From a bacterium (GTDB lineage: Bacteria > AUK180), in assembly GCA_023144005.1 (NCBI GenBank), contig JAGLGN010000034.1:1-64000 (forward strand): DNA of 64,000 nucleotides, written 5' to 3'. A model generated the notes under the pieces. The model had not been told where the DNA came from, did not search any database, and saw only the letters and a program-made list of their open reading frames with translations. This document shows positions 24,572-42,672 of this stretch, one piece after another (the stretch's first letter is position 1; each line of letters begins with the position of its first letter). The position numbers and the translations under genes were made by a program.

Positions 24572-26859
24572 TTTTCCATAAGCTCCAGAATATATTCGGG
24601 TTTCATGGGGAAACGCACCGCTCGGACACCGACAGCATTGTAAAGCGCGTTCGCGATCGCCGGGATGGGGCCGTTTATGCCTATCTCGGAAACCGATTTC
24701 GCGCCGAATGGCCCCGATGGCTCAAATGTGCTGAATAATTTGATCTCCAGGCCTTGAACATCTTCAATATTGTAGATCTTGTAATCCTGAAAGCTCCCAT
24801 TCATCATCTTTCCCTTTTTATTGAAGAGATAGCCCTCGGTCAAGGCATAGGAAAGGCCGTTGACAACCGCGCCTTCAACCTGCCCTTCAGCGAGTTTGGG
24901 ATTGATCGCCGTGCCGCAATCCACACCGCACATATATTTTATTATCTCGATCTTGCCAGTCCATGTGTCAACCTCTATCTCGGTAAAGACACCCATGAAA
25001 GGCGGTGGAGATACAGGAGAGATATGCGAGCCGATATAACCGATCTGGAATTGATTATTGATATAGAGAGCATATTTCGCGATATCGCCGTATGTCTTGG
25101 TCTTTCCGTCCTTCTTACTTGTGGCAATACTGTTCTTGAGCTCAATTTCTTCTTGGGAACATTTGAGCATATCAGCCGCGACCATGCGGATCTGTTTCAG
25201 TACTTCTTCGCCTGTCACTTTCACCGCGCCGCCTGAAATATAAGTGGTTGAGGATGCATAAGCACCTACATCAAAAGGCGTCATATCGGTATCGGAGGAA
25301 TATATAATAATGTTATCGGTCGTTGTCTCCAATGCCTCAGCGGCGATCTGTGACAATACTGTATCCGAACCCGTACCAAGATCCGTTGCGCCAACATTCA
25401 GATTGAAGGAACCGTCATCGTTTATCTTTATTGACGCGGATGCCATATCAACAAGAGGTATACCCGAACCCTGCATGAATATCGCCATTCCCTTTCCTCT
25501 TCTGAACCTTCCCGTCTTCTCAGTATGGGGTTTGGTATCTGACCAATTCAGCCCCTCTTCTCCCCATTCAATGATCTCTGAAAGGGCGGTGGACTTGATA
25601 AATTGAGGCACACCCTCTTTTCCTTCGCCAAGTGCCGCGAATATGGGAGAGGTCTCATCCTTTTTGATGTGGTTTATCTTTCTTAATTGTACGGGGCACA
25701 TCTTGAGCTTCTCCGCCAGAATGTCCATTGCCTGTTCGAGGCATGCATATCCCTGTGTCGCTCCATAACCTCTATATGCTCCGGCAACCGGAAGATTCGT
25801 ATAAACCGTACTGCCGTTGAAGCGCACATTCTCTGCTCCGTAAAGCGGCAGGCATTTACTGCCGGCATTGAACATGACAGTGAGGGCATGTGATCCGTAC
25901 GCGCCTGTATTTGAGATAACATCCATCTCTACTGCATTCAGCATTCCGTCGACATTCGCTCCGAGCTTGACCTTCACCGCCATCGGATGCCGTGTCCTTG
26001 AGATGAATTCCTCTTCTCTGGTCAATTCGATCTTCGCTGGACGGCCGGTAAGCTTTGTTATCATTCCCGCATAATACTCTAGATAGACCTCCTGCTTGGT
26101 CCCGAATCCTCCGCCGATCCTCGGCTTGACGACCCGGATATTCTTTTCCGGCATCTCAAGGACCTTTGCGCATATCCTTCTGACATGGAAAGGAACCTGT
26201 GTCGAAGTCCTTAGGACCAATCTGCCCTTTTCCTCAAGATAAGAGATGCAGATATGGGGCTCAATAGGAGTGTGTTGACTGTAATGTGTCTCGATCTCAT
26301 ACTCAACTGTAAATTCCGAATCAGCCAGGGCTTTTTCAACATCTCCGACCTTCACATCAACATGGCCGGCGAGGTTTTTCTCCCTATCGTATATTCCAAA
26401 GGAATCCTCTTCGTCATGGATAACGGGAACACCGGGTTTAGAGGCATCCGCAATGCTGAGCACTGCTTCCAATTCCTTGTATTCCACCTTTATCAGTTTT
26501 ATCGCCTCCAGAGCGATCTCAGCGGTATCGGCGGCAACAGCGGCGACCGGGTCTCCGACATATCGTACTTTCTTATCGAACATATATGTATCATATGGTG
26601 ATGGCTCGGGATGTCCCTGACCGGCGGTAGTATGGGGTATCCTGGGGGTATTTCCATGATGAATGACCGCATGCACCCCGGAAAAAGCTTCCGCAGCGGA
26701 GGTATCTATGCTCAGTATTTCCGCATGGGCATGAGGGCTCTTCATGAATTTCACTATCAGAAGCTCCCTGAAATCCATATCATCCACAAAAAGGGCTTTT
26801 CCGGCGGCAAGTGATAATCCGTCAACCTTCAATCTGCTTTGATTTACTTCTTTAAACAT
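24568..26859 (-). CDS. xdhA: xanthine dehydrogenase-type molybdenum-binding subunit
   Basis: 763 residues, normal for the catalytic subunit of a three-part molybdenum hydroxylase. Its order is the small alpha/beta hammerhead domain (GKALFVDDM...VHAVIHHGNTP), then the cofactor domain with PRIGGGFGTKQEVYLEYYAG, VAGAYRGYGATQG and the C-terminal catalytic Glu in FGAKSVSEIGINGP. It oxidises purines such as hypoxanthine and xanthine by water-derived hydroxylation. GAYRGYGATQG is the form seen in clostridial-type purine hydroxylases; whether the enzyme carries a selenium ligand cannot be read from sequence. Start overlaps the FeS gene stop (TAATG). Confidence 0.92.
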   Translation of the reverse strand: MFKEVNQSRLKVDGLSLAAGKALFVDDMDFRELLIVKFMKSPHAHAEILSIDTSAAEAFSGVHAVIHHGNTPRIPHTTAGQGHPEPSPYDTYMFDKKVRYVGDPVAAVAADTAEIALEAIKLIKVEYKELEAVLSIADASKPGVPVIHDEEDSFGIYDREKNLAGHVDVKVGDVEKALADSEFTVEYEIETHYSQHTPIEPHICISYLEEKGRLVLRTSTQVPFHVRRICAKVLEMPEKNIRVVKPRIGGGFGTKQEVYLEYYAGMITKLTGRPAKIELTREEEFISRTRHPMAVKVKLGANVDGMLNAVEMDVISNTGAYGSHALTVMFNAGSKCLPLYGAENVRFNGSTVYTNLPVAGAYRGYGATQGYACLEQAMDILAEKLKMCPVQLRKINHIKKDETSPIFAALGEGKEGVPQFIKSTALSEIIEWGEEGLNWSDTKPHTEKTGRFRRGKGMAIFMQGSGIPLVDMASASIKINDDGSFNLNVGATDLGTGSDTVLSQIAAEALETTTDNIIIYSSDTDMTPFDVGAYASSTTYISGGAVKVTGEEVLKQIRMVAADMLKCSQEEIELKNSIATSKKDGKTKTYGDIAKYALYINNQFQIGYIGSHISPVSPPPFMGVFTEIEVDTWTGKIEIIKYMCGVDCGTAINPKLAEGQVEGAVVNGLSYALTEGYLFNKKGKMMNGSFQDYKIYNIEDVQGLEIKLFSTFEPSGPFGAKSVSEIGINGPIPAIANALYNAVGVRAVRFPMKPEYILELMEK

Positions 26860-27323
26860 TATTCACTCCTCATTTTATCGGCGGAACGAATAACCGCATT
26901 TTCTATTTTCACATAACCGGTACATCTGCAGAGATTTCCCGACAACGCTTCTCTGATCTGTGTTAATGTGGGATCTTTCTCTTTATCAAGAAGTACCTTC
27001 GTCGCCAATATCATCCCCGGGGTACAGAATCCGCATTGCACAGCGCCTTCTTCTACAAAGGTCCGCTGAATAATATGCGGCTCGTTGACCGTCCCGATCG
27101 CCTCTATCGTAGTGAGGGTATGTCCATCCGCCTGACCGGCGAATATGAGACATGAATTTACCAACTTCCCGTTTATAATGACCGCGCAGGAACCGCAATC
27201 ACCGGTTGAGCATCCGCGCTTCGCGCCTTTATATCCTTCCCTTCGGAGGAGATCCAATAATTTTTCACCCGGATCGGCATTGAATACCTTTTTCACTCCG
27301 TTTATTGTTACCTTGATATCCAT
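26859..27323 (-). CDS. xdhC: xanthine dehydrogenase-type [2Fe-2S] subunit
   Basis: 154 residues with two [2Fe-2S] sites. The plant-ferredoxin-like site is CSTGDCGSCAV with a further Cys in VNSCLIF. The helical site is CGFCTPGM and LCRCTGY. It passes electrons from the molybdenum centre to the FAD subunit. One base separates it from the FAD subunit gene. All eight cysteines are present. Confidence 0.94.
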   Translation of the reverse strand: MDIKVTINGVKKVFNADPGEKLLDLLRREGYKGAKRGCSTGDCGSCAVIINGKLVNSCLIFAGQADGHTLTTIEAIGTVNEPHIIQRTFVEEGAVQCGFCTPGMILATKVLLDKEKDPTLTQIREALSGNLCRCTGYVKIENAVIRSADKMRSE

Positions 27324-27324
27324 C

Positions 27325-28098
27325 TTACTTCTCCTTCCATTCTCTGTATTGGCTTATCACGATCTTCTCCTTGAATTCGGGCTTGCCCCTGAGATCATCC
27401 ATGAACTTCACTTCATTAAGCCGAGGCAAAAGTGTATTTATGAGAAATTCGTCATCTGCGGAATACATTATCCTGACAGGTTTTACGGTTGCAGACCCTA
27501 CTGTGATATGATCTCCTTCCTCACTATTGAGAACAATGAATATTGAGGTGGGGATATCCGATCTAGTACGGGCAAATCTTTTATAAAAGGGTTTGGTATC
27601 CTTGTATTTTGAGGGTAGAATAATGCTTGTCAGCAGCAGGCCTGTGTATGTTGAACGATTCGCTATAAAGGAGGATACCGGAACCGCTTTTACTCCGGAA
27701 TCGGAAGTAAACATCAGTGTTGCCTCCAAAGCCAATAGCAACGGAGTTGTATCGTTCCAATGATATCCTGCCATCACATTCCCACCGATAGTCGCTATAT
27801 TTCTAATTGTGATGGGGCCGCAATGAGAGGATACTTGTCCGACAAGGCCGCCGCAATATGAGAGTTCTGCTTCTATCAAATCAGTGAAAGTCACATTTGC
27901 GCCAATGTGAATATCGCCGTTCTCTTCTTTGATCCCCTTTAGTCCAAGATCCTGGATATCGATGATCGTATCCACCTTGGGAAATTTCATTTTCGCGACA
28001 TAAGTACCCCCCGCAAGTATTTTGTGATCAGGGTTTTCAGCTGACAGACGATGAAATTCATTCAGATCCCGAGGCCTGAAATACTTCTTAACTTTCAT
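27325..28098 (-). CDS. xdhB: xanthine dehydrogenase-type FAD-binding subunit
   Basis: 257 residues, somewhat shorter than the 280-300 common for this subunit. FAD-binding blocks are KILAGGTYVAKM near 25-36 and ITIRNIATIGGNVMAGY near 96-112. The C-terminal CO-dehydrogenase flavoprotein domain is present but compact (ITVGSATVKPVRIM). It would hand electrons to NAD or another acceptor. It overlaps hutI by 11 bases. Order FAD-FeS-Mo is the standard operon order. Confidence 0.9.
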   Translation of the reverse strand: MKVKKYFRPRDLNEFHRLSAENPDHKILAGGTYVAKMKFPKVDTIIDIQDLGLKGIKEENGDIHIGANVTFTDLIEAELSYCGGLVGQVSSHCGPITIRNIATIGGNVMAGYHWNDTTPLLLALEATLMFTSDSGVKAVPVSSFIANRSTYTGLLLTSIILPSKYKDTKPFYKRFARTRSDIPTSIFIVLNSEEGDHITVGSATVKPVRIMYSADDEFLINTLLPRLNEVKFMDDLRGKPEFKEKIVISQYREWKEK

Positions 28099-29323
28099 AT
28101 GTTCTCCTGTATATTATTTTTCCGTTCTTTACCGTATATCTGATATTGTTCATTCCCACCGCATAGAACATGGATTCAAGATCGGGAATATCCATTATTA
28201 CCAGATCTCCATGCTTGCCGACCTCTATCGTACCCGTCATCTCAGCCATTTGCAGAGAAGCGGCAGGGTTTATGGTCAGGGCATTGAGGATCTCGTAAAC
28301 ATCCATTCCGCATTTCATAAATGCTATTTGTGCCAGAAATTGAATGTTTGAAGAATAGCATGTACCGGGATTAAAATCGGTCGCAAGCGATACCGGGATG
28401 CCCTTTTTGATCAAAAGTGAGGCATCTGGATAATCCTCGGTGCCTAGAGAGAATTGTGTCATGGGCAGTAAAGTGATATTAATCTTCTTGCGCGCAATGA
28501 CCTCCAATTCCTCATCGGTGAAGAAATCGAAGTGATCGATAGAGGTCAAGGGATATTTTTCCGCAAGCATACCGCCGCCGAATGAGGAAATCTCATTTGC
28601 ATGTATTCTGACCCCGAGTCCGGCATTATCAGCTTCAGCGATCATTTCACCTGCCTGCTTCAGATCAAATGCGATATCCTCCACCCAAACATCAAAATAA
28701 TCGGCAAGGCCATCATCAGCTACTTCTTTAATGGTGCTTTTCACCTGGGCGATGAATTCCTCGGATGATATACCCTTCGGCAGTAGATGCCCGCCGAGGT
28801 ATGTGATCTTAATGTCGAGCTCCGATCCTTCCCTGTATCTGTTCAATACCTTCAAAAGTTTCAATTCACCTTTCCGATCGAGGGCATATCCGCTTTTGGC
28901 TTCAAAGGAAGTGATCCCCTGCGAAATAAATTGCCGGACATTTCTCTCAAGCACTTGAAATAGTTCTTCAGCGGAAGCGGCTCTTGCTTTTTCAATACTA
29001 GCGTGAATGCCGCCGCCTCTTTCGGTGATCTCTTCGTAAGAGAGGCCTTTAAGGCGATCTATGAACTCATCCTGTCTCGTAGCGGCGAACACCGGATGTG
29101 TGTGAGAGTCGATGAAACCCGGAAGACAGATCCCGCCGAGGCAATCGACCACATCGTCAGCGCTGCCGTGAGAGATCCCTGTATCAATATCGGTTATTAT
29201 GCCATTGCTGACCGCGATATCGCAATTACTGTATATCTTGACCGCACCCTGCAGAGCGCCCGCCTGGAAAGTGTTCCCATTCGAAGTGTATATTTTTGAG
29301 ATATTCTTGAAAACAGTTTTCAT
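28088..29323 (-). CDS. hutI: imidazolonepropionase-like amidohydrolase (HutI family)
   Basis: 411 residues, normal length. Metal and substrate motifs are HTHPVFAATRQDEF, GGHLLPKG, HANEISSFGGGMLAEKYPL, SIDHFDFF and DFNPGTCYSSN, all close to HutI. HutI opens the imidazolone ring of 4-imidazolone-5-propionate in histidine breakdown. No hutH, hutU or hutG is in the window; instead the gene leads a xanthine dehydrogenase/8-oxoguanine deaminase operon, so a purine-derived imidazolone is a reasonable alternative substrate (inference). The ATG lies 7 bases after the -10 box with no Shine-Dalgarno sequence. Confidence 0.85.
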   Translation of the reverse strand: MKTVFKNISKIYTSNGNTFQAGALQGAVKIYSNCDIAVSNGIITDIDTGISHGSADDVVDCLGGICLPGFIDSHTHPVFAATRQDEFIDRLKGLSYEEITERGGGIHASIEKARAASAEELFQVLERNVRQFISQGITSFEAKSGYALDRKGELKLLKVLNRYREGSELDIKITYLGGHLLPKGISSEEFIAQVKSTIKEVADDGLADYFDVWVEDIAFDLKQAGEMIAEADNAGLGVRIHANEISSFGGGMLAEKYPLTSIDHFDFFTDEELEVIARKKINITLLPMTQFSLGTEDYPDASLLIKKGIPVSLATDFNPGTCYSSNIQFLAQIAFMKCGMDVYEILNALTINPAASLQMAEMTGTIEVGKHGDLVIMDIPDLESMFYAVGMNNIRYTVKNGKIIYRRTYES

Positions 29324-30359: not shown

Positions 30360-31715
30360 CTAAGAATCATTTGGTTCACGAATGCTTAATTTCATTAGAG
30401 AGATCTTTTTATCACACTCACCACTCTGAAGACTATTGAATAATACCAGATACTCATCTTCGGATATTTTTTGAATCTTTTTCAACCTCATATCATCTTG
30501 GTAAATAGTTTGAATTCCTTTTAATTTCTCTACCCAGTCGATATGCAGAATAACTGTTTCAGAATTTTGAATTTTCTTACCAAATACTAAACATCCGTCT
30601 TCGTAATTAATGAAGTGACCTGTAGATGTAATACCAGGAAATTTCCTACTCCATTCTTTCATACCTGCTTCATTAATCTTTATTACATAGAGTGGACTAG
30701 GACTTTCCAAATTGTCATGATGGCTTCCAATAATCATGTATCCTTCTGTCGATTCAATAATATGAAATGCATTGAAATATCCAGATTTCCGAAATAGTCT
30801 ATTTGATTTCTCATATAAATTTTCCCATTGAACTGCACCCTTATGATCAAGTTTCGCTGAATAAATGTAGGGAAAAGCGTCTCCAATTATTATATATCCT
30901 CCGTCGGTAGTTTTTTGAACTTCTTGAATTCGAACATCTTCAGAAGTCATAAAACCACTTTGCCATTTCAATTCGGCCGTGAAATCAAAATTTCTGATTA
31001 TATATTTCCTCGGTTCCTGCCACTTTCCTGTAATAACAGAAATCCCATCACTTGACTTGATGACTTGATTTATATACTCATTTTTCCCGCTTATAGGACG
31101 TTTTGAAACGATATTTAACTTTGCGTTCACTTCAAAAAGATATACCTGACTTAGACTTCTATTCCCGGGGGGAAATTTCTCGCAAAAAACAAGAAAATAA
31201 TCGGTTGAAGATGATAACACTTCATTCAACATATAGGATGACTCATCCTTTATTATCTCTCTGTTTATGACTTTCCCTGTTTTAGTCACTTCAGTAATAG
31301 CAATACTTTGGGGCAAAGAAATAGCTTCGCTTTGGGATTGAACACTAAATATAAGAATAGCTCCGCTTGAAAGCTTCATTATAGAAAAGGGATGTTCATT
31401 TGCACCACTAACAATCTCAGTTTTATACATCCTCTTACCATTATCATCAACATACAGGATATTGATATTTGAAAATAAGCGAGGTGAGCCGGTAATTATA
31501 TTCACTCCGTTGGGAACGCTAAATAGATCATCTGCAATAAAAGGCCCGAGATCGTTGTATTCTTTCCTAAAAATAATAGTAACTGGCGTAATGCCCTCTG
31601 ACTGTATAGAAAGATCAAGTTCTGATTTTGTTATATCAGCCTTATTACAACCGGGAAGCAGAATTATCGCAAGTAAAATTAATAGCGCTTTCAAACAGTT
31701 CTGCAATTTTTTCAT
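30360..31715 (-). CDS. lipoprotein with beta-propeller-like repeats; candidate immunity to the orphan Rhs tip
   Basis: 451 residues. Signal peptide MKKLQNCLKALLILLAIILL with lipobox LPGC. Several repeats of the pattern DGGYIIIGD...L...G...W are visible in the second half (TTDGGYIIIGD, STEGYMIIGS, NYEDGCLVFGK), suggesting a beta-propeller. Start has AGGAGG four bases upstream. It begins 8 bases after the stop of the orphan Rhs module, the position where immunity genes of Rhs/CDI-type toxins sit, but it does not look like any immunity family I know. AT-rich like the neighbouring toxin tips. Confidence 0.65.
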   Translation of the reverse strand: MKKLQNCLKALLILLAIILLPGCNKADITKSELDLSIQSEGITPVTIIFRKEYNDLGPFIADDLFSVPNGVNIITGSPRLFSNINILYVDDNGKRMYKTEIVSGANEHPFSIMKLSSGAILIFSVQSQSEAISLPQSIAITEVTKTGKVINREIIKDESSYMLNEVLSSSTDYFLVFCEKFPPGNRSLSQVYLFEVNAKLNIVSKRPISGKNEYINQVIKSSDGISVITGKWQEPRKYIIRNFDFTAELKWQSGFMTSEDVRIQEVQKTTDGGYIIIGDAFPYIYSAKLDHKGAVQWENLYEKSNRLFRKSGYFNAFHIIESTEGYMIIGSHHDNLESPSPLYVIKINEAGMKEWSRKFPGITSTGHFINYEDGCLVFGKKIQNSETVILHIDWVEKLKGIQTIYQDDMRLKKIQKISEDEYLVLFNSLQSGECDKKISLMKLSIREPNDS

Positions 31716-31723
31716 TATTCCTC

Positions 31724-32290
31724 CTATCTGTACAGATTTCTAGCATAAGTGTAGCAATGTTCTTTGCAGTTTCTCCCTCCAAAAGCAGCAGTTATCCCAT
31801 TTAGCGCTGCGCGATTGTCCGCCGGGGCTCCCTCCTTGTCTTTTGATACAAATACCTCCCAAGCCAATTGTCCTGCATAAGCTTGAGGACCACCAAATAG
31901 ATATGTCAGCATACATCCGCCGTAACAATGTTTAAATTTGTCAAAACCTCCAGCTTCGTTGAGCATAAATTTAATGAGCTTTTTATCAGTTTCACGATTC
32001 CTTACCTCATTCTTATACCACTCACCCGCAGATTCTATGCCTTTTGTAATAAGGCCTTGAAAAAGAAACATCTGCAATAGCCTACCACTTGGTAACAAAA
32101 ACCTCATTGCATCGAGAATAACACCAATTGATTGTGGAATCATTCCTGAAGGGTCTCTAAAATGAAGAGGACGGCTATCAACATAAACATAAGAATTTCC
32201 ACATTTCAAGGGGTCCTTCCCTGAAAACATACCAACCGAACTATCCATCATCCTTGCTCTGTAATAATAATCTCCGGTCTCAATATTCAT
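31724..32290 (-). CDS. orphan Rhs C-terminal (toxin tip) module
   Basis: 188 residues that start inside the conserved end of the Rhs core: NIETGDYYYRARMMDSSVG followed by MFSGKDP, closely matching NVETSDYYYRMRMMDSSVG followed by RFSGKDP in the full-length Rhs protein. There is no signal peptide and no YD repeats, so it is a displaced 3' fragment. Similarity to the full gene continues some ten bases upstream of the ATG, where an in-frame TAG stops it. The tip carries FKHCYGGCMLTYLFGG and GGRNCKEHC, a divergent match to the active Rhs tip. A hydrophobic stretch lies near 50-70. It could be silent, expressed alone, or a reservoir for recombination. Confidence 0.75.
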   Translation of the reverse strand: MNIETGDYYYRARMMDSSVGMFSGKDPLKCGNSYVYVDSRPLHFRDPSGMIPQSIGVILDAMRFLLPSGRLLQMFLFQGLITKGIESAGEWYKNEVRNRETDKKLIKFMLNEAGGFDKFKHCYGGCMLTYLFGGPQAYAGQLAWEVFVSKDKEGAPADNRAALNGITAAFGGRNCKEHCYTYARNLYR

Positions 32291-32335
32291 TTCCTATCTG
32301 GGATTTGACAATACAAAACATAGATATTTTTATTA

Positions 32336-33163
32336 TTAGTTGGAATCATTCTTTTCCCAGATCTTCTGTTTTACAATATCTTTTATTCGGATTTTGCCGT
32401 ATATTGATGCAAATGTACCGTTACCACGGTCTTCTTTCGCTTCTATTTTCCCTTGTTTATTAACAAGAAAAGCATAATAAAATGAATTAATATCAAAATT
32501 GGCAGGTAACTTACCTCTACAGGCCAACATAGATTGACGATTCAATATCTTACTTGCCTCATTCCAAGATATTGGTCCATAAAATAATATTTCCCCAAAG
32601 TTTACTACCTTTTCTACTCCCTGTGGATCTCCAAAGTAGTCTACAATTTGTTCTTCTTTACTATTGATAAAATCAATTGAGGTAAAAGCCGAATTGCGTA
32701 ATACTTCATAGTAAACTTTCGGAGAGCTCCCTTTGATATTCCCATGATCGCTTTGGACAGATAATGATTCTCCTTGAAGGGCAAATGCTTCTAATTGATT
32801 TTCATCATTGAAAGAAAAAAAGTAGAAGGCATAATAAGCCTCCAAATCACGTAGGGCTATCTCTGAATTATGCATCCTTTTCAATTCTTCTATATCGACT
32901 GAAGTACTTGTGATGGTTGGATAGTATAGCAATTTGCGATTGCCTTGAAAATGAATGTTGAGAACATAACCTTCATTACCTAATTTTTCTATAACTTTAT
33001 CCATTGTGTCTCCGATTTTTATTCCCTCAATGTGCTTATTCAGAGAAGTTGTTCGTTTCAATTTTTTTACAAAAATAAATCCCTCTTTTCCTAAAGTATA
33101 CAGGCCAACTAAACATACAATCAGAAGAAAGGATATAATAATTTTTATAAATGTCGCTTTCAT
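32336..33163 (-). CDS. membrane-anchored protein with two BamE/SmpA-like repeats; candidate Rhs immunity protein
   Basis: 275 residues. One membrane segment at about 7-25 (IIISFLLIVCLVGLYTLG) places the rest outside the cytoplasm. Two segments have the BamE/SmpA pattern of a helix with G/SxxxxV...LG then paired strands: IKIGDTMDKVIEKLGNEG at about 48-65, and SKEEQIVDYFGDPQG later. The gene starts 7 bases after the Rhs stop, on the same strand, with only weak GGTGA ahead, so translation is probably coupled to Rhs. Position and anchoring fit an immunity protein against a toxin acting in the envelope, but this is inference. Confidence 0.65.
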   Translation of the reverse strand: MKATFIKIIISFLLIVCLVGLYTLGKEGFIFVKKLKRTTSLNKHIEGIKIGDTMDKVIEKLGNEGYVLNIHFQGNRKLLYYPTITSTSVDIEELKRMHNSEIALRDLEAYYAFYFFSFNDENQLEAFALQGESLSVQSDHGNIKGSSPKVYYEVLRNSAFTSIDFINSKEEQIVDYFGDPQGVEKVVNFGEILFYGPISWNEASKILNRQSMLACRGKLPANFDINSFYYAFLVNKQGKIEAKEDRGNGTFASIYGKIRIKDIVKQKIWEKNDSN

Positions 33164-33170
33164 ATTGATT

Positions 33171-36100
33171 TCACCAATCCCCGGATGCCCCGGGGGTTAA
33201 ATGAGGGTAGTTTTTTTTATTAGAGTATTCTGCACATTTATCCGAACAATTTTCTCCTCTTACTGAATATAGGATGCCTTCATAAACGGCATCCCAGTCT
33301 TCACTAGTATCTTTTTTATTAGTATTTTTAGAAATAGTTTCGTGATACCACTGACCGAAAAGCCCAAGAGCGGGTCCTCCCCAATCAGCAAGCTTACATC
33401 CTGCGAAACAATGCGTAAAATCATCATTACTATCTTCAGCCTTCATTAAGCTTCCATCTGACAAAGCTCCTTCCTTAGCATCTTGAATCCAGTCGCAACC
33501 TGATGAATCAGTATGTGTGATTGGCATGTTTGACACATAGAAGAAATTATTGATACCTAATACCGGATCTTTCCCCGAAAACCGTCCCACACTCGAATCC
33601 ATCATCCTCATCCTGTAATAATAATCAGAGGTCTCCACATTGTACTCCCGTCCAGTGTAAAGATACCTTATCGCAGGCACATTTTCAAGTTTTTTCTTGT
33701 ATGGATTGAGATTGAGATTCGCATAGAATGTTCTCCGAGCCGGGTCTGTTATTTCACTCCCTCCGGTTGTATCCATATTTCCATATGGATTTATCGGATC
33801 TCCCACCTGCCAATTCTGTGCCGCAAACCATGTCTCATAGTCAAATATATCAGGCTCATTCGGGATATTGGCGAGCCTTTCCACAGGTATCGCATAGACA
33901 TCGCTTTTCGCATTGAAGTGCTTGGAATAAATGATATGGTCAGAACCGTTATATCCAGCAAAACTCGGTCTTGACTTTGTTACGGTTCCGTAACTTCCCA
34001 TAGAATTGACAGCTTCGAGTGATGTTGAATAAGCAAATATCTCGATATTTCTTTTTCTGACCCTGTGAGAAACAGGATAAATCTGATACGGACAGCTTGT
34101 CCCAGGCACATATCCTGTAGTGATGTCATACGCAAACAATGTATTGCCCGCATTCCAGCCGATCGCTTCGTATTTGCTTGCGTTGATATTCTCCGTTATT
34201 ACCGTCTCTTCTCCGGTATCAACCTTGAATAGGACGATATCTGTTTCTGTCCCATCATACTTCAATACAGCAAAGGTCGCTTCATCAGCCTTCGGGTTGA
34301 TCTTTGTATAATCCGCAGTGTCATCCGTAAATCTGTCGTATGTGAGATCATCATTTATCCGGTATATGTTCGTATAAATGTCACCAGTAAGTTTAGCGGT
34401 GAAAAATATTCCCGTCTCGTTCGACTTGATTGTATCAAAGGATTGAACCGCCGTTGATGCAATGATATTCACATCCGAAGAAATAGCTCCCATAGTATCA
34501 GAGACGATTTTCTGAACACCGCTTGAGTCACTATAAAGATAAACGGTATTCACATCGCCGTTCTTCACAATGAATTTATCCTCTTCTACATCTGAATACA
34601 TGAGAAAACCGGTGGGAGACATGGGAGCATGATTTATCCGATATAGGTCTCCGTCTCTCCTATAGTACGGAGTCCTGAATGTGTCAGTATATGTCATCGG
34701 AGTTCCAAACGGATTAGGGACAGGCGTCACGGCTTCGACGAGCGTATAACTGTTACCGGTACCGAGATCGTAACGCTCGATCGATTTGTTCGGACTGACC
34801 ATATCCTCATTCCTGAGCATGATAACGGGATCATCGCAGGTAACGAGGCCGCTCTTGAGAAAGTATAAAGAACCTCCATAAAGCTGCGGATCGTCCTTGA
34901 AGTAGGTATTCTCCAGGATCGGAAGCTCCACGCCCGCAGTGTAACTGTATTCAACTCCGTCCTCGCAGTAATCGGTGATCTCTCCCCATGCGCCGTAACC
35001 GTAGCTTGAGCGGAGCCAGTCGAAACCGGCCTCTGTGATCTCCACGACCTGTCTCGTCGATCCAAGGGCATCCTTGAATATGTAGAACTCCTTATCTTCC
35101 TTGTTATCTTCAAAAGCAAGTATATTATCAATTCCGGGGCCGTTGAAGTATGTCTTCTTTATCTGCTCGCTTCCGTCAAGATCATAGACACAGTTGGCAC
35201 CGTCATAGATATAGTATTCGACTATCGTTTCATTAGTTTGCGGATCCTTGTAAGTCCTCTTCAACCGCTCTCCGGTCGGTGAGAATGTGTATTCACCTAA
35301 TACATTGCCATCTTTTGTTACAGCTCCAAGCCGTCCTTCGGGGCCGTAAAAATATCCACCTAAATTCGATGAATTCTCATCTTCCTGAACCGTAAGTTCG
35401 CCCTTGACATTATATTCCCAATCCTTGCTACCGTTTAAAAGAAGCAATGGAGATACATTGATCTTTATCTTGACATCCTGCCCGATCAGGCGGTTCTCGC
35501 CGTCATAATCATACTCCTCGGTACGATAATTACCCGGATTCAGTGTAATATCTCCGTATATCTGCGTACCGAGAATGAAAGAGGTTGCCTTGACACGGTT
35601 TCCTACACTATCATAGGAATATGAAGTTCCCGCGCCATTGTAATATGAAGCGGCGGTCAGCTGATTCTGATTGTCATAATTGAAATAATTCCTGAGTGTC
35701 TTTCCACGAAGCTCTTCGGGGATAACATCATTGTCCTTGAAGGTCTCAAAGAGGCCTATCCTGTTTCCCCTGTCATCCAGAAGATATTCGTATGAAGCGT
35801 AAGGATTGTCGATCTTTTTAAGGTTCTTCAGCTCATCGTAATCATATGTAACCGTCTTGCCGTCGGGATATGTTATGCTGTCAAGAAGTCCGCAGCAGGA
35901 AGAATACGAGTAAAGGAAAGTGCCCAGATCGGGAAAGGCCTGAGATATGGGCCTGTTCATATTGTCGTATGTCATGCCGACTTGCAACGGTGTTCCACCT
36001 GTCTCAAACGGCATTGTCCTTGAAATAACATTTCCATTATCATCATATGAATATGCCACATTGAATTCCTTGCCGGCAATGAGGGTCTTGACAAGTTCGG

Positions 36101-38807
36101 GCCTGTTCAGAAGGTCGTATTCGTATTCCTTTATTATCTGCGTACCGTCTTTATAATGATCTGTAACTTTAGTGATATTGAGTTCCTTGTCATGATCAAA
36201 TTCCCTTCTCTGTTTATCATACTTTGCATCGAATATGATATGTTTTGTGACGAATCTCTGTATTTCATGATCGTAGTCCTGATAATACTTGGTTGTCTCG
36301 GATTGCGCGGGATCGCTGTTCAGAGAAAGAGTTTTCTCAACCAATGCACCGTCCGGAGAATAACGGTAAGTTTCCGTTGTCAGCGGATATTCGGTCTTTG
36401 TAACTTTTCCCGACAGATCATGGGTATATGATGTGATATTGCCCTCGCCGTCGGTAAGGCGGATAAGATCGCCCCTTAAATTATACTCATAGACAACAGT
36501 TTCATCTACCGTATCCTTATACCTCGTATGAGCCAGTACTCTGTTGAAATTATCGTAAGTATACGAATCGGTCAAATCGCCGTTGATACTCTTTTCAGAC
36601 ACCCTTCCAAGGGCATCATATAAATATGAGGCAACTTCCGTGATTTCTGACTCATTGGTATTCCCCGTAGCCGGATCAACGCTCAAAATGTTTCCCGTGC
36701 GCTGCTTGGCAAGTATCCTTCCTCTTGTATCGTATGAATAAACAACCTGCGCCGACGGTTGATTCAGGGGATCGAACTCCTGCTGTGACAAAAGGTCGCC
36801 ATTGTCATTATAGCCGAATCTTTTTTCCGAACCGTCAGGATGTTCGATTCTCCGAAGTTTCCATGCCGCCTTATCCCATGAAAGTATTGTGACATTCTCA
36901 TTCTTATCCCTTACTTCATCAGGATAGGGGAAATCTTCATAAAGGTCATACTTCGCCTGGACGGAGTTTCCGTATTCATCCTGAACTCTGGTTACATCAC
37001 CATCATTGTCATAGGTGATTTCAGTGCCTGTTGTGACATCATTCAGATCAGGGATAAGGACAATTAGATTATCATCCGTAATTGTAGTGGCTCCCGAAGG
37101 GTCGTACGGAGGGAGATTATCAGGATCAAATTCGTCCTCTATCCAGCCGCCTGACGAACCGGTAACTTCGCTGTTATCACCGGATGTATTACTGAAATTC
37201 TCCGATAGCATCTCTGATGCAGCTGACGAGCTCTCATTATAATTCTTAAACGATGTTTTTCCAGATTGCTGGTCACTTTGTCTTGTAGATACTCCGAATT
37301 TATTAAAAAGCAGACAGATTTGTTTTCCATCAAGGATCTCATTGAAAAAATCAACCGTTATGATGTTTGAAGCAACAAATCTCGCGATACCTTCGGTAGA
37401 ATCCATCGGTCCGAACACGACTCCCGAATACTCAGGAATTCCCTGTGAATCATCCCGCCAATATGTATATGTCGTTTCTTTTTCAAATTGAACCCTTGGA
37501 AACGGTTCGGCATCCTCGTATATCTTTGAAATATAATGCGAAGAAAGGACTTCTCCGGTATCAAATCCATATTGAGTATATTCAAATGACCAGGACCTTC
37601 CTCTGAGATCGTTCAACTTCGTCAGATCACCCTGCGTATTATATTCAAAGGTCCATTCCCGCGAATACGAGTCCTTTATCCTTTCAACCCGTTTTTGTGC
37701 GTCGTAGAATACTTCAAAGATTATTCCGCTATTCAGATCATACTGACCGGTCTTGATCTGTGTCAATTTCAATTCGCTGTCATATTCAAATGTGATCTCA
37801 TGTTTGTCTGTAACCCGGTCTTCTATCGAAACAAGCAGAATTTCGTTAACGGATTCCACAAGATCATCTTCGCTATCCAGTTTAATTCCTTCCGGCTTGT
37901 ATCTGATCTCGCCCTGAAGACTCTGGTATTTCTCGATCAAACCGTTTTTGTAAAATACGCTGTAATAGCCGCTTCCTTTGATGTACATTATCCCTACTGA
38001 TTTGTCCAGAGGTTCATACCGCTCGGTGCCCGGATTATATTGAAATAGAATTCCCCTTCCCGAGGAATCGGATAAAACCAGGAAATTTTCTCCGGCTGAA
38101 TTATTAATAAAAATAATCTCCTTCTCAAAATTGAATATCCAATTATAACCGGCGACACCGTCTCTCTCAAGCAATGAATTATAAGAAAGGGAAACCGTAT
38201 AGGGAAGGCGGGCATCGAAGTCGGAAAGCATTTTGCCGTAGTTTATCGATGCGTCAAATGTATTTCTGGAAGCTGTGACCGGAGCCGAATTGGCCGGAAG
38301 CGGAAAATAGGGAATACTTCGCAGAAGATAGGTCTTGCCTCCTGTGCTGGCAAGCGTTGAGGAGAGCTTCTGGATCTTGCTGTAATGATCGTAAATATCC
38401 GATGCGAACTGATCCGAATAATACGGTGTCTCCGAGACCGTATATTCATGCTTTGAATAATTCCCGTAATAATCGTCAGGACTCGAAGAAAGGACTCTTT
38501 CAAGCCGCTCCGAATACCTGCTCAATTGAGTCTTAAGGGTTGATATGACGGGGTTCGGCAATGGGACTGGAAGTGTCGTTTCAGGATTATAGATAAGGAG
38601 TTTATGGCCGCATTTAAGGTCCCCGAGGTTTGTATCAGTATCGGCAACGGTTGCCACGGCAATCTTGATCCTGTCATCGACCTTCTGATACGCGATCGAT
38701 TTTTCAAGGTCGTCATTGTCAGGAGGTATGAGGCTGCGGAATTCGATGGCATTGACACCGGAGATCACAAGAAGAATACCCAATAAAGAAAATATTATCT
38801 TTCTCAT
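33171..38807 (-). CDS. Rhs/YD-repeat surface protein with beta-propeller-like insert and C-terminal toxin tip
   Basis: 1878 residues. Signal peptide 1-20 (MRKIIFSLLGILLVISGVNA), so Sec export rather than type VI secretion. YD repeats run to about 1270 (YDTRGRILAKQ, YDDNGNVISR, YDYDELKNLKKI), interrupted near 520-565 by a Ser/Asn-rich linker. At YGAWGEI (about 1267) the usual core would go straight to YTGREYN; here that block is at about 1720, with some 440 residues of TolB-like beta-propeller sequence between. Core end SSVGRFSGKDP is near 1740. The tip of about 125 residues has FTHCFAGCKLADWGGP and RGENCSDKC. Ribosome binding site AGGAGT. Confidence 0.9.
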   Translation of the reverse strand: MRKIIFSLLGILLVISGVNAIEFRSLIPPDNDDLEKSIAYQKVDDRIKIAVATVADTDTNLGDLKCGHKLLIYNPETTLPVPLPNPVISTLKTQLSRYSERLERVLSSSPDDYYGNYSKHEYTVSETPYYSDQFASDIYDHYSKIQKLSSTLASTGGKTYLLRSIPYFPLPANSAPVTASRNTFDASINYGKMLSDFDARLPYTVSLSYNSLLERDGVAGYNWIFNFEKEIIFINNSAGENFLVLSDSSGRGILFQYNPGTERYEPLDKSVGIMYIKGSGYYSVFYKNGLIEKYQSLQGEIRYKPEGIKLDSEDDLVESVNEILLVSIEDRVTDKHEITFEYDSELKLTQIKTGQYDLNSGIIFEVFYDAQKRVERIKDSYSREWTFEYNTQGDLTKLNDLRGRSWSFEYTQYGFDTGEVLSSHYISKIYEDAEPFPRVQFEKETTYTYWRDDSQGIPEYSGVVFGPMDSTEGIARFVASNIITVDFFNEILDGKQICLLFNKFGVSTRQSDQQSGKTSFKNYNESSSAASEMLSENFSNTSGDNSEVTGSSGGWIEDEFDPDNLPPYDPSGATTITDDNLIVLIPDLNDVTTGTEITYDNDGDVTRVQDEYGNSVQAKYDLYEDFPYPDEVRDKNENVTILSWDKAAWKLRRIEHPDGSEKRFGYNDNGDLLSQQEFDPLNQPSAQVVYSYDTRGRILAKQRTGNILSVDPATGNTNESEITEVASYLYDALGRVSEKSINGDLTDSYTYDNFNRVLAHTRYKDTVDETVVYEYNLRGDLIRLTDGEGNITSYTHDLSGKVTKTEYPLTTETYRYSPDGALVEKTLSLNSDPAQSETTKYYQDYDHEIQRFVTKHIIFDAKYDKQRREFDHDKELNITKVTDHYKDGTQIIKEYEYDLLNRPELVKTLIAGKEFNVAYSYDDNGNVISRTMPFETGGTPLQVGMTYDNMNRPISQAFPDLGTFLYSYSSCCGLLDSITYPDGKTVTYDYDELKNLKKIDNPYASYEYLLDDRGNRIGLFETFKDNDVIPEELRGKTLRNYFNYDNQNQLTAASYYNGAGTSYSYDSVGNRVKATSFILGTQIYGDITLNPGNYRTEEYDYDGENRLIGQDVKIKINVSPLLLLNGSKDWEYNVKGELTVQEDENSSNLGGYFYGPEGRLGAVTKDGNVLGEYTFSPTGERLKRTYKDPQTNETIVEYYIYDGANCVYDLDGSEQIKKTYFNGPGIDNILAFEDNKEDKEFYIFKDALGSTRQVVEITEAGFDWLRSSYGYGAWGEITDYCEDGVEYSYTAGVELPILENTYFKDDPQLYGGSLYFLKSGLVTCDDPVIMLRNEDMVSPNKSIERYDLGTGNSYTLVEAVTPVPNPFGTPMTYTDTFRTPYYRRDGDLYRINHAPMSPTGFLMYSDVEEDKFIVKNGDVNTVYLYSDSSGVQKIVSDTMGAISSDVNIIASTAVQSFDTIKSNETGIFFTAKLTGDIYTNIYRINDDLTYDRFTDDTADYTKINPKADEATFAVLKYDGTETDIVLFKVDTGEETVITENINASKYEAIGWNAGNTLFAYDITTGYVPGTSCPYQIYPVSHRVRKRNIEIFAYSTSLEAVNSMGSYGTVTKSRPSFAGYNGSDHIIYSKHFNAKSDVYAIPVERLANIPNEPDIFDYETWFAAQNWQVGDPINPYGNMDTTGGSEITDPARRTFYANLNLNPYKKKLENVPAIRYLYTGREYNVETSDYYYRMRMMDSSVGRFSGKDPVLGINNFFYVSNMPITHTDSSGCDWIQDAKEGALSDGSLMKAEDSNDDFTHCFAGCKLADWGGPALGLFGQWYHETISKNTNKKDTSEDWDAVYEGILYSVRGENCSDKCAEYSNKKNYPHLTPGASGDW

Positions 38808-38808
38808 A

Positions 38809-41800
38809 TTACACTCCTGCCTTTATTCCGTAATACTTGATGAGAATATCCATTTTTAAACGGATTTCTGAAATATCATATGATCCGATTGACCGCAGCG
38901 CTTTTATCTGGGTCAAAAGATTATTCATGGCTGAATCAAAATTGCCGATATTCTCTCTCATACTTTCTATCTCCGCATAAATTTCATTCACAGCCGACAG
39001 TTCATTTCCCGAAAGAACCTGTGACATCTCTTCCAGATCAAGAAGTATCGCAGCATAAAGCTCATCAATAGTAAAAGAAATGTCGTAACGGTCAACTGTC
39101 GAATCTATCAGGGAATAAATGCCGCCGCATTTCAGCGACAAGGCCCTCTCTATGGTATAATCCCCTTTCAATTCAGGAAGCTGGATCATAATAGATATTG
39201 ATTTCTCCGAATAGGGTGAAAGATCAAAGTATTGAACCGTCGAGTTGTTGATTATATCTCCTTCCGATATATCAAGAAAAGTAATATCGACAGATGAGAT
39301 GTCAAGTTTAACCGATACGGTTTCCGAAGAATCGTTTGAAACGATATATTTTACCGGAATGATGCGGCTTGGGAAATTGTCGCTCATGTAGTACTCTGGG
39401 AAATTATATGTTTCCAACATAGAAACTATCATATCGCTTAAATCCGATGGCAAGGATATTATCGGGTGATTGAAGAATAATGATCGGCCACGGCCGTGTA
39501 TATTCTGAATTACCGCGGGAGAAGAACCCGGTTCCAAGGTGCCTGATACGGAGCTCTCAGAGGAAAAAGATAAAAGCTCAAGCGGCTTTCCATCAAAGAG
39601 ATAATCAAATCCAGGAGATATTGCAGAGGGGATCACATTGATCGAATAAATTGATTCTTCCAGCTTCCCGAATTCTTTTACTCCGGTAAGTTCCTGAAAG
39701 AAATCGCCTAAACCGGTAAATCCGAAATTAACGACTGGATTTCCCCAGTAGACATACTCGCTGACTTTCCCTGAAACCGTGCCCTTCATGTTCTTTCCGT
39801 TTAAAAGGATTATTCCGTTAAATAATCCTGAGCGCAATTTCTCATCAAATGTACTCGCCGTATCGGCAATATCGACCTTCCATATTTCCTGTGAGCCTAT
39901 CAGCACTTGTTCAAGCTCGCTGTAGTCTGCTTCTGAATAAATAAGAACATTTAGAGGTTCACCGTTCTCAGTAGTCATATCAACATTCGGAACGATAAAT
40001 AAAATCGCGTCAACGATTTGTGAAACATTGCCGATATTGTCGTATCCGCGGGCCTTGACATAGTATTCTCCGTAATCGTATTCCGAAAGAACGACCGGGT
40101 CGGTATAGTTAAGGAAATCTGCCTCATTGATATCCTGGGAGATAGAATACTGGGCATAGGAATATCCCGACAACAAGTCCTGCCCTGATATCTCAAGAAC
40201 CGAATTCTTATAGCAGACCAATTGTCCGGCGATAAGATTTGAAGGCGTAGCGGTGATAGAGATCGCCGGCGGGGTCAGATCCATCATAAAAGAGTAAATA
40301 TTTTCATCCTCAATATTCACCACATTATCTTCGGAGTAATAACTAACCGTATGATTTCCTTCCGAAAGGCCGGCAAGATCCAGAGAATCCTGATATTCCG
40401 AGTATGCATTTTGGTCTATTTTTAAATATTCCGCATACACACCGCTGAGCGCGTCATATGATGACATTGAAATTGAAGAAAACTCTCCGGCGAATTGTGT
40501 TGTTCCATTATTATATGCGTTATGAAATTCAATCCCGCTTTCGGGTGGGGAATAATCATTATAGAAAATATATGACTTCGTGGTGCTTCTATTACCCGCA
40601 AGGTCGGTTCCGTAATAGTAAATCCTCCGTTCACCCTCAGGAAGGCCGTTGATAAAATCCTGAGTGTAACTGATCCAGTTGGCATTATCAAATGAATATA
40701 AAGCCGTTCCTTCCGATACCTCAAATCCCATCAGCGTCAATGCGGAGATATACAGATCCAGAGAGAAATAGAAAGGATCGCCTACCTTCAAGAGAACAGA
40801 GGGCGGAGAAAGGTCAATTGTAAAATTCAATGTCTGTGAAGCTTCATTCCCAGCGGGATCGGATGCCGTCGCATTGAGAGTATGCGCGCCGGGAGCACCG
40901 ATGGAATAATCGGGAAAGATCTCAGTGCCGTTATCAGTAACACAAACGATCGAGCCGTTTTCATCCTTATGGCTGATTGCCGGGAACACATAATTATTAT
41001 ATAATCCGTTGTCTTCCACTCCGGAGATATACAATTCAGGCGAGCCGGTATCAATTATCGCTTTGAAGATATTCGCTGAAGTCGTTTCAGGGCCATTTGA
41101 AGCATATACCTTAAGTAAATATTCTCCGTCCGCAAGTAATTGGTTATTGGCATCTTTTCCGTTCCAGAAAAACGAGAGTGGGGCCTCGTCATTGTATGAA
41201 GCCTGGCCTGATGCTATAATATTGCTCATTGAAAGATCGTAAACGCTGTAGAAGACCGTTGCTGGAAAGTTCAATTCCACATCTACCTGAAGAGAATCTT
41301 TGATTAAGTCGCTATTTGGACTGAAGTATTTATTCTCAACTGATATCCAGGTAAAATGTAATGCTTGAGAGTCTATTGGGTACAGCCCTATAACATACAG
41401 ACTGAAATGCTCAGATATTAAAACTATCTGATTATTTTCAACATCTTTTATCACATCCGCAAAGCCGCTGCTGGCATCTTCCCATGCAAGGTCATCCGCA
41501 TTCCAGATAAGCGGGACGAGAGCAAATTCCTCTTCAAGTGTCAGCTCACTGTCGTCGTACAAAATAGTGACGGAAGCATCGCCTGTAAGAGCGCTTTGCG
41601 CGAGAGTAATGTCATATACGGCGGAAGCCGGAGATATTTCCTCAAGGCTCAATTCCGAAATGATCGTGTCGCTGTCTATCAGATCAATGGTCAGCAGATC
41701 CGGCTGCTCCAATGAATTTTCCGGAACCATAACGATGACTTGCTTATCGTCGCTAATCACGGTGCCGGGAACATTTCCTGCCGTATTTTCAATAAAATTC

Positions 41801-42672
41801 TCTGAAGTCAGAATTTGAAAAGGGCGTAATTCCGATTGAACTGTCCTTCCTGTTTTTGATGTTAATGAAAGCTGAACATCATAATGTCCCGGAACAAATA
41901 CATTATTTTCATTCCCCTCTTCAAAGGAAAATTCTATTGAATAAATATCTGAATATGTATTTACCGTCTGAATGGTAAAAGCAATACTTTCAGAATAGAT
42001 CATATTTTCATCATCATCCTTAATCTCCAAAAGGATAGATTCAATTCCATCATTTGAGGAGGCGGTAAATGGAAATGAACCGATGCAGTCTAAGGAATGA
42101 AATAACTTATAGAGCTCGGTATAGTAAACCTTCGAGGAACCGTCACATGTGAAGTATTTTCCAGTTAATTGTGAGTAATATACTTTCTCCCCTTGAATGT
42201 CCATAAAATACGTAGTAGGTAGATTAAAGGGCCAGGAATCGTTACACATAGCATAATCAAATCCTTTTTCAAAGTAACTGTTGTAATAGTAAGAGTATGT
42301 ATCTCCCAGAGAGACCTCCAACTCATTGATGAACTTCACGGTAAATTTTCTGGGATGAGGTTCGCCATTCAAGTTCCTGATCTCAAAGTCCGCATACTCT
42401 ACGAAATTGCTATCGGGTACTCCTTGAAGTGATATCATTTTTTCAACCGGCCCGGAAGATGTGGCAAGAATTGTAGTGTCAGACATGCTTATTGAAAAAC
42501 TAGTCGGTGCTTGTACAATTTCTATTTCTGCGTTTGAAGCACCGTAAGAGGAGATATCAATAAAGATAGTACTGTCTCCAGATGGTATTCTATAGACAGG
42601 TGTAAGGTGGGTTGCGGAGAAAAGGATCGCATTACAAAAAAGGAAAACAAACAGTATGACCTTTGCTTTCAT
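38809..42672 (-). CDS. giant surface protein with FlgD-Ig and OmpL47-like repeats, operon partner of Rhs
   Basis: 1287 residues. Signal peptide about 1-20. A FlgD-type Ig domain lies at about 443-545: YFSPNSDLIKDSLQVD with FFWNGKDANNQLLADGEYLLK. From about 545 to 890 come repeats ending AGN followed by strand and Pro-Pro (SDPAGNEASQTL, TDLAGNRSTTKS) typical of OmpL47-like beta domains. About 905-1065 reads like a ThuA/Rossmann-like segment (EPLNVLIYSEADYSELEQV). A helical tail closes it after about 1200. One base separates its stop from the Rhs start. Role in presenting or anchoring the Rhs protein is inferred from position. Confidence 0.78.
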   Translation of the reverse strand: MKAKVILFVFLFCNAILFSATHLTPVYRIPSGDSTIFIDISSYGASNAEIEIVQAPTSFSISMSDTTILATSSGPVEKMISLQGVPDSNFVEYADFEIRNLNGEPHPRKFTVKFINELEVSLGDTYSYYYNSYFEKGFDYAMCNDSWPFNLPTTYFMDIQGEKVYYSQLTGKYFTCDGSSKVYYTELYKLFHSLDCIGSFPFTASSNDGIESILLEIKDDDENMIYSESIAFTIQTVNTYSDIYSIEFSFEEGNENNVFVPGHYDVQLSLTSKTGRTVQSELRPFQILTSENFIENTAGNVPGTVISDDKQVIVMVPENSLEQPDLLTIDLIDSDTIISELSLEEISPASAVYDITLAQSALTGDASVTILYDDSELTLEEEFALVPLIWNADDLAWEDASSGFADVIKDVENNQIVLISEHFSLYVIGLYPIDSQALHFTWISVENKYFSPNSDLIKDSLQVDVELNFPATVFYSVYDLSMSNIIASGQASYNDEAPLSFFWNGKDANNQLLADGEYLLKVYASNGPETTSANIFKAIIDTGSPELYISGVEDNGLYNNYVFPAISHKDENGSIVCVTDNGTEIFPDYSIGAPGAHTLNATASDPAGNEASQTLNFTIDLSPPSVLLKVGDPFYFSLDLYISALTLMGFEVSEGTALYSFDNANWISYTQDFINGLPEGERRIYYYGTDLAGNRSTTKSYIFYNDYSPPESGIEFHNAYNNGTTQFAGEFSSISMSSYDALSGVYAEYLKIDQNAYSEYQDSLDLAGLSEGNHTVSYYSEDNVVNIEDENIYSFMMDLTPPAISITATPSNLIAGQLVCYKNSVLEISGQDLLSGYSYAQYSISQDINEADFLNYTDPVVLSEYDYGEYYVKARGYDNIGNVSQIVDAILFIVPNVDMTTENGEPLNVLIYSEADYSELEQVLIGSQEIWKVDIADTASTFDEKLRSGLFNGIILLNGKNMKGTVSGKVSEYVYWGNPVVNFGFTGLGDFFQELTGVKEFGKLEESIYSINVIPSAISPGFDYLFDGKPLELLSFSSESSVSGTLEPGSSPAVIQNIHGRGRSLFFNHPIISLPSDLSDMIVSMLETYNFPEYYMSDNFPSRIIPVKYIVSNDSSETVSVKLDISSVDITFLDISEGDIINNSTVQYFDLSPYSEKSISIMIQLPELKGDYTIERALSLKCGGIYSLIDSTVDRYDISFTIDELYAAILLDLEEMSQVLSGNELSAVNEIYAEIESMRENIGNFDSAMNNLLTQIKALRSIGSYDISEIRLKMDILIKYYGIKAGV

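Follow-up and report, generated by a model that had tools for sequence, protein, structure and literature searches.

The tip locus lies in an uncultured bacterium (assembly GCA_023144005.1, contig JAGLGN010000034.1), and the window referred to below is the whole stretch of DNA that was analysed, positions 1-64,000 of this contig. It encodes an Rhs protein ending in a predicted toxin domain (tip A) and, further downstream, an orphan ORF ending in a second such domain (tip B):

38809..42672, minus strand: secreted Ig-like/FlgD-like protein of 1287 aa, directly upstream of the Rhs gene
33171..38807, minus strand: Rhs/YD-repeat protein of 1878 aa that carries tip A, with RHS_repeat and DUF6531 and with Rhs_assc_core at residues 1711-1770
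33171..33506, minus strand: tip A, predicted toxin domain, the last 111 residues of the Rhs protein
32336..33163, minus strand: putative immunity gene A, 275 aa, 7 bp after the Rhs stop
31724..32290, minus strand: orphan tip B ORF, 188 aa, composed of an Rhs-core remnant (32150-32290) and tip B
31724..32149, minus strand: tip B, predicted toxin domain, residues 48-188 of the ORF
30360..31715, minus strand: putative immunity gene B, 451 aa, predicted lipoprotein, 8 bp after the tip B stop

The genes form a minus-strand operon in which the gaps between the Ig-like/FlgD-like gene, the Rhs gene, the 275 aa gene, the tip B ORF and the 451 aa gene measure 1, 7, 45 and 8 bp, respectively. The Rhs protein begins with a hydrophobic signal-like segment, MRKIIFSLLGILLVISGVNA, read by eye as a signal peptide. 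The orphan ORF starts with about 50 residues of Rhs core that are 59% identical to the intact Rhs (approximately 73% DNA identity over 80 bp), and tip B is indeed the orphan cassette that the original prediction had seen in it, with a truncated core remnant ahead of the tip. The Ig-like/FlgD-like protein (38809..42672) is conserved in the sister genome G001 and is a possible delivery or anchoring partner of Rhs. Elsewhere in the window, positions 23204-29323 hold what appears by eye to be a purine-degradation-like cluster including amidohydrolases, xanthine dehydrogenase-like subunits and an imidazolonepropionase-like protein.

Both ORFs and all of the motifs quoted in the original prediction are present in the sequence, and its proposal that the two tips belong to one family holds, as they align over nearly their whole length once the Rhs core is removed. 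The Smith-Waterman score of this core-free comparison is 88, against a mean of 26.6 and a maximum of 61 in 5,000 shuffles, none of which reaches 88, and tip B alone as a query recovers tip A at E = 4.7e-6 in a whole-genome search. Residues identical in the two tips, in tip A numbering from SSG, include D28, F30, H32, C33, G36, C37, L39, G44, G51, Q52, E56, K64, D70, A73, G77, I78, G84, N86, C87, C91 and Y94. The motif set of tip A therein comprises D28/H32, E56, D70 and G77 with the cysteines C33, C37, C87 and C91, and that of tip B (numbering from SGM) comprises D70/H74, E98, D111 and G118 with C75, C79, C128 and C132.

The genes that follow the tips are putative cognate immunity genes. The product of immunity gene A has one N-terminal transmembrane segment (residues 3-21), with the rest predicted by hydropathy to lie outside the cytoplasm. 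It matched no family; by eye it looked BamE-like (IKIGDTMDKVIEKLG; SKEEQIVDYFGDP), an identity that follow-up searches did not confirm. The product of immunity gene B carries a signal ending in ILLPGC, a lipobox by eye that the strict pattern did not match. The gene after the related Rhs tip in G403 encodes a transmembrane protein and the one after the related tip in G015 a protein with both a transmembrane segment and a lipobox, so that all four readable genes after Rhs-linked tips (A, B, G403 and G015) encode membrane-anchored proteins or lipoproteins.

Exchange of tips in relatives, proposed as a test in the original prediction, is borne out by G001, which belongs to the same genus. At the same locus in this genome the C-terminal 267 residues of the upstream gene product are 92-97% identical, and the syntenic Rhs shares 76-97% identity over residues 1-1300 but only 19% over the last 78. 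The G001 Rhs tip differs from tip A and is followed by seven further tips on truncated cores, each with a downstream gene, mostly encoding membrane or lipoproteins; a second G001 Rhs bears yet another tip. Since G001 has retained most of this Rhs yet carries another tip and seven further cassettes, the tips swap, and the features of an Rhs polymorphic toxin (conserved core, variable tip, tip-specific downstream gene and tip exchange) are all found. The G001 array itself (L082, contig G001:C86, 808-17236) consists of a full Rhs with an LRAT-like NCQHW tip and seven orphan tips, a dense tip-immunity array. G001 also encodes another cysteine-containing tip family, GQSF[IV][DE]C..NC … C[YF].[QE]C (L083 3293-7999 and L082 14630-15442), which belongs to no Pfam family and is shared by one full-length Rhs and one orphan, each followed by a multi-transmembrane gene.

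A profile search with the tips retrieved relatives as Rhs tips in G015, G403 and G322 and as a stand-alone protein in G404. These four domains and tips A and B come from distant lineages, and all six share D-x3-H-C-x3-C … E … D-x6-G … C-x3-C, with Asp at His-4 and a fixed spacing of 24 between His and Glu in every member. The shared pattern described in the original prediction therefore stands in its motifs but changes in two respects: its 'Gln/Trp/Glu patch' is an invariant Glu at H+24, and its 'acidic stretch with Asp and Gly' is a D-x6-G helix. The GGP that it also listed is present in tips A and B but is not common to the more distant members. The four-cysteine tip family is rare. Close relatives of the tips were absent from the genome, viral, plasmid and phage collections searched, and 24 matches to the degenerate DNA pattern D-x-F-x-H-C-x-[GA]-G-C-x-L in 85,000 genomes were all judged to be due to chance. 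The G404 relative (L109 4753-5310) is a stand-alone HCYAGC-domain protein that is not linked to Rhs, lacks an obvious partner gene and has its own signal peptide as read by eye. The G403 locus (L087, G403:C14, 7684-10717) carries two more orphan cassettes after the HC tip, the first pairing an orphan tip containing a HELTH metallopeptidase-like motif with a possible lipoprotein and the second an NCIHW tip with a multi-transmembrane gene.

Searches of Pfam, NCBIfam, PHROGs and PADLOC with tips A and B recognised only the Rhs core and no toxin family, and no nuclease or zinc-finger family matched the tips at E up to 10. Phospholipase A2, to which the Cys/His layout had pointed, was rejected, as no profile matched and the residues come in a different order. 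A resemblance to DUF6973 (PF22322) had been suggested in the original prediction; tips A and B have no match to it at E up to 10, nor does their own genome, but the resemblance is a real lead because the homologous G015 Rhs tip scores 32.2 bits with DUF6973, above the cut-off of 27. The other five tips align to the G015 tip with an hhalign score of 41.3 (shuffle maximum 18.3). The five-sequence alignment that includes G015 is misaligned at helix 4 and was therefore left out of the profile statistics.

The geometry D-x3-H-x(22-25)-E-x(9-24)-D-x6-G is found in 6/6 tips, in 5/8 DUF6973 proteins and in 4/4 YfiM/DUF2279-like proteins, and in one other among 492 proteins, where 2.4 are expected by shuffling. 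What the tips have in common with DUF6973 and the YfiM-like proteins is the Asp, His, Glu, Asp and Gly positions, not the cysteines. The YfiM/DUF2279-like proteins, retrieved by the tip profile, have the same spacing and a weak similarity to DUF2279 (E 1.5e-4). They reach an hhalign score of 33.7 against the tips (shuffle maximum 13.5), a high score that is partly selected because they were found by the tip profile in the first place. The less biased check uses DUF2279 and DUF6973 sets selected by Pfam, and here the profile-profile scores against the tips are 16.0 and 16.5 for DUF2279 and 21.5 and 16.7 for DUF6973, narrowly above every column shuffle (maxima 13.9-14.6) at an hhalign probability of 1-6%. 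The best weak matches of the G403 tip are serum amyloid A (SAA) in Pfam (E 0.006), SAA-3 in the PDB and YfiM in NCBIfam, and the one conspicuous hit in an SAA search of 386 bacterial genomes is the G403 tip, at 26.9 bits and thus below the cut-off of 30.8.

AlphaFold2 models of the tips, computed from two-sequence alignments of the window sequences only and with a mean pLDDT of 63, are all-helical with no beta-hairpin. The tip A model has five helices, with the motif residues on helices 28-43, 45-61, 65-82 and 87-99, and in the tip B model they fall on helices 68-85, 87-100, 108-123 and 128-140. In both tips the His, Glu and Asp are placed on three successive helices and the Gly follows seven residues after the Asp. 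In the fold search the top-ranked match of tip B is mouse SAA3, and for tip A the SAA entries at ranks 2, 3, 8, 9, 15 and 20 have the highest probabilities among the matches listed; none of the Foldseek matches reaches significance (best E 0.8-1.2), and against SAA the TM-scores are about 0.4. A viral structure search with the tips found nothing.

SAA, YfiM, DUF2279, Wnt and TelC are united in the Lipocone superfamily, whose active site is formed by a His on helix 2, a Glu on helix 3 and an Asp on helix 4, with a Gly capping helix 4 (Burroughs, Nicastro, Aravind; PMC12419801). Several Lipocone families are toxin tips with known or predicted immunity proteins that are transmembrane or lipoproteins, and TelC cleaves lipid II (PMC12419801). 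The predicted helices of the tips place His, Glu and Asp as expected (H32/E56/D70 in tip A and H74/E98/D111 in tip B), all six members keep these residues together with a Gly near the end of helix 4 (D-x6-G), and the putative immunity proteins are transmembrane-anchored or lipoproteins. Two features that are frequent, though not universal, in Lipocones are lacking in tips A and B, namely a polar residue at Asp+4 (Val in A, Ala in B) and an acidic residue at the end of helix 3; the G403 tip has both (N+4 and TDE). The sNxxGR in helix 4 of the SAW (SAA-Wnt) clade is absent from tips A and B, although the last helix is predicted. As regards the ClaspCone/CapCone signature (DK or xD at His-4, Ser at Asp-3, Asn at Asp+4), Asp is at His-4 in all six members, but Ser-3 and Asn+4 occur together only in G403 and neither is found in tip A or B. 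Tips A and B thus fall outside DUF6973 by its cut-off; judged by their motifs, they are not SAW and not clearly ClaspCone or CapCone. DUF6973 is not mentioned in the main text of PMC12419801 and may itself be a Lipocone, its NNxxGR resembling the SAA-Wnt sNxxGR.

Taken with these differences, membership of the tips in the Lipocone superfamily is considered likely, and that they are active lipid-headgroup enzymes is slightly better than an even bet. The suggestion of a possibly undescribed toxin family is not supported as it stood: the tips are probably not of a wholly undescribed kind, because they fall with a published superfamily (DUF2279/YfiM, SAA, Wnt and TelC). They would form a four-cysteine branch that is named by no Pfam, NCBIfam, PHROGs or PADLOC model.

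Like the Lipocone toxin tips Min-Wnt, prok-SAA, CapCone, ClaspCone-2 and prok-TelC (PMC12419801), tips A and B are predicted to be small helical polymorphic-toxin ends with His, Glu and Asp on three successive helices, a Gly capping the fourth helix and transmembrane or lipoprotein partners. Unlike them, they have two conserved cysteine pairs, the first on the His helix and the second on the last one, they lack sNxxGR, Ser-3/Asn+4 and other clade signatures, and they are missed by Pfam models. DUF6973 (PF22322) shares the DAFRHA..NA / HE / D-x6-G geometry and also occurs at Rhs tips, but has Ala-x3-Ala where the tips have Cys-x3-Cys, and its NN..GR is absent in A and B. The YfiM/DUF2279 lipoproteins resemble the tips in DKFQH … G..KE..D … D-x6-G, with the same spacing in the YfiM-like relatives, but are outer-membrane or periplasmic proteins without such cysteines and are not toxin tips. 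Serum amyloid A (PF00277) is the best weak match in both fold and sequence (…DKYFHARGNYDAAR…), below significance, and differs in being an animal acute-phase protein with no C-x3-C pair in the aligned part. The gene arrangement in turn is that of Rhs orphan cassettes such as those of Salmonella, with a truncated core, a tip and an immunity gene downstream of a full rhs (PMC3967940). In contrast to the Salmonella type, the Rhs described here has a predicted Sec-type signal, comes from an uncultured lineage and shows no PAAR part, and the sister genome G001 has seven orphan cassettes.

It is proposed that tips A and B represent a divergent, probably disulfide-clasped Lipocone toxin subfamily that is carried by an exported Rhs, acts on lipid headgroups outside the cytoplasm and is countered by adjacent immunity proteins, a reading considered probable as a whole. 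The tips would be interchangeable toxin domains folded as a small cone of four or five helices, with His of helix 2, Glu of helix 3 and Asp of helix 4 lining the active pocket. The Rhs protein would leave the cell by its Sec-type signal and the tip would be delivered to a neighbour. Since the tips look like a distant Lipocone branch, they probably attack rival membrane or cell-wall lipids from outside, and by analogy with TelC they would most likely cleave or swap a phosphate-linked head group in the periplasm or outer leaflet, either on a phospholipid or on a wall precursor linked to undecaprenyl. The membrane-anchored protein would neutralise tip A and the lipoprotein tip B, with the orphan being a tip-immunity cassette that is kept in reserve or has been retired.

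Nucleases are common among Rhs tips, and this together with the spacing of the His and Cys pairs, to which the original prediction had already drawn attention, would favour a zinc treble-clef or HNH-like site made of HC-x3-C and C-x3-C, the tips then being cytoplasmic nucleases or zinc-dependent hydrolases. This seems quite unlikely in view of the missing nuclease and zinc-finger matches at E up to 10, the all-helical prediction without a beta-hairpin, the membrane anchors or lipoprotein signals of all four readable partners and the export signals on Rhs and the G404 relative, and also because DUF6973 and the YfiM-like proteins share the Asp, His, Glu, Asp and Gly of the tips but not the cysteines. 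Of the two roles originally offered for the cysteine pairs, metal binding is the less likely one and helix-clasping disulfides the more likely, because Rhs, the stand-alone relative and the partners carry export signals or anchors; outside the cytoplasm the C-x3-C pairs would oxidise and clip the His helix to the last helix.

The tips might instead have an independent helical fold that has come to resemble the Lipocone pattern by chance or convergence, and affect the target membrane by forming pores or by binding to it. Their small, helix-rich nature, the weak profile-profile scores and the lack of a statistically significant fold match are compatible with this, yet it is held to be rather improbable, since G015 exceeds the DUF6973 cut-off, the geometry of all six members is nearly absent elsewhere and three separate weak searches point to families that PMC12419801 unites. 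A further possibility, independent of the role of tip A, is that tip B and its neighbour are decaying, functionless remnants. The tip B ORF lacks an export signal, its start falls within the Rhs core and has a poor ribosome site, and its remnant has diverged to 59% identity; against this, the reading frame is unbroken and retains all of the motif residues, an intact lipoprotein gene follows it at 8 bp, and in G001 seven orphan cassettes of this kind are preserved, each followed by a gene. Decay is regarded as quite unlikely.

Returning to the proposed disulfide-clasped Lipocone toxins, a broader reading, put at somewhat below even, is that they make up an extra Lipocone family. Its hallmark would be the two C-x3-C pairs that clasp the helix of the catalytic His to the last helix, and its members would serve mostly as exchangeable Rhs tips directed at lipids of the membrane or of wall precursors. 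Such a family, missed by recent profile libraries, may link the SAA/Wnt-like and YfiM-like branches. If this is true, the superfamily to which animal Wnt and serum amyloid A belong would gain a compact, disulfide-clasped soluble branch, and the locus would present a pair of natural variants of one toxin, close together and each with its own partner. Small secreted domains of some 100 residues would then allow the lipid chemistry predicted for soluble Lipocones to be tested directly.
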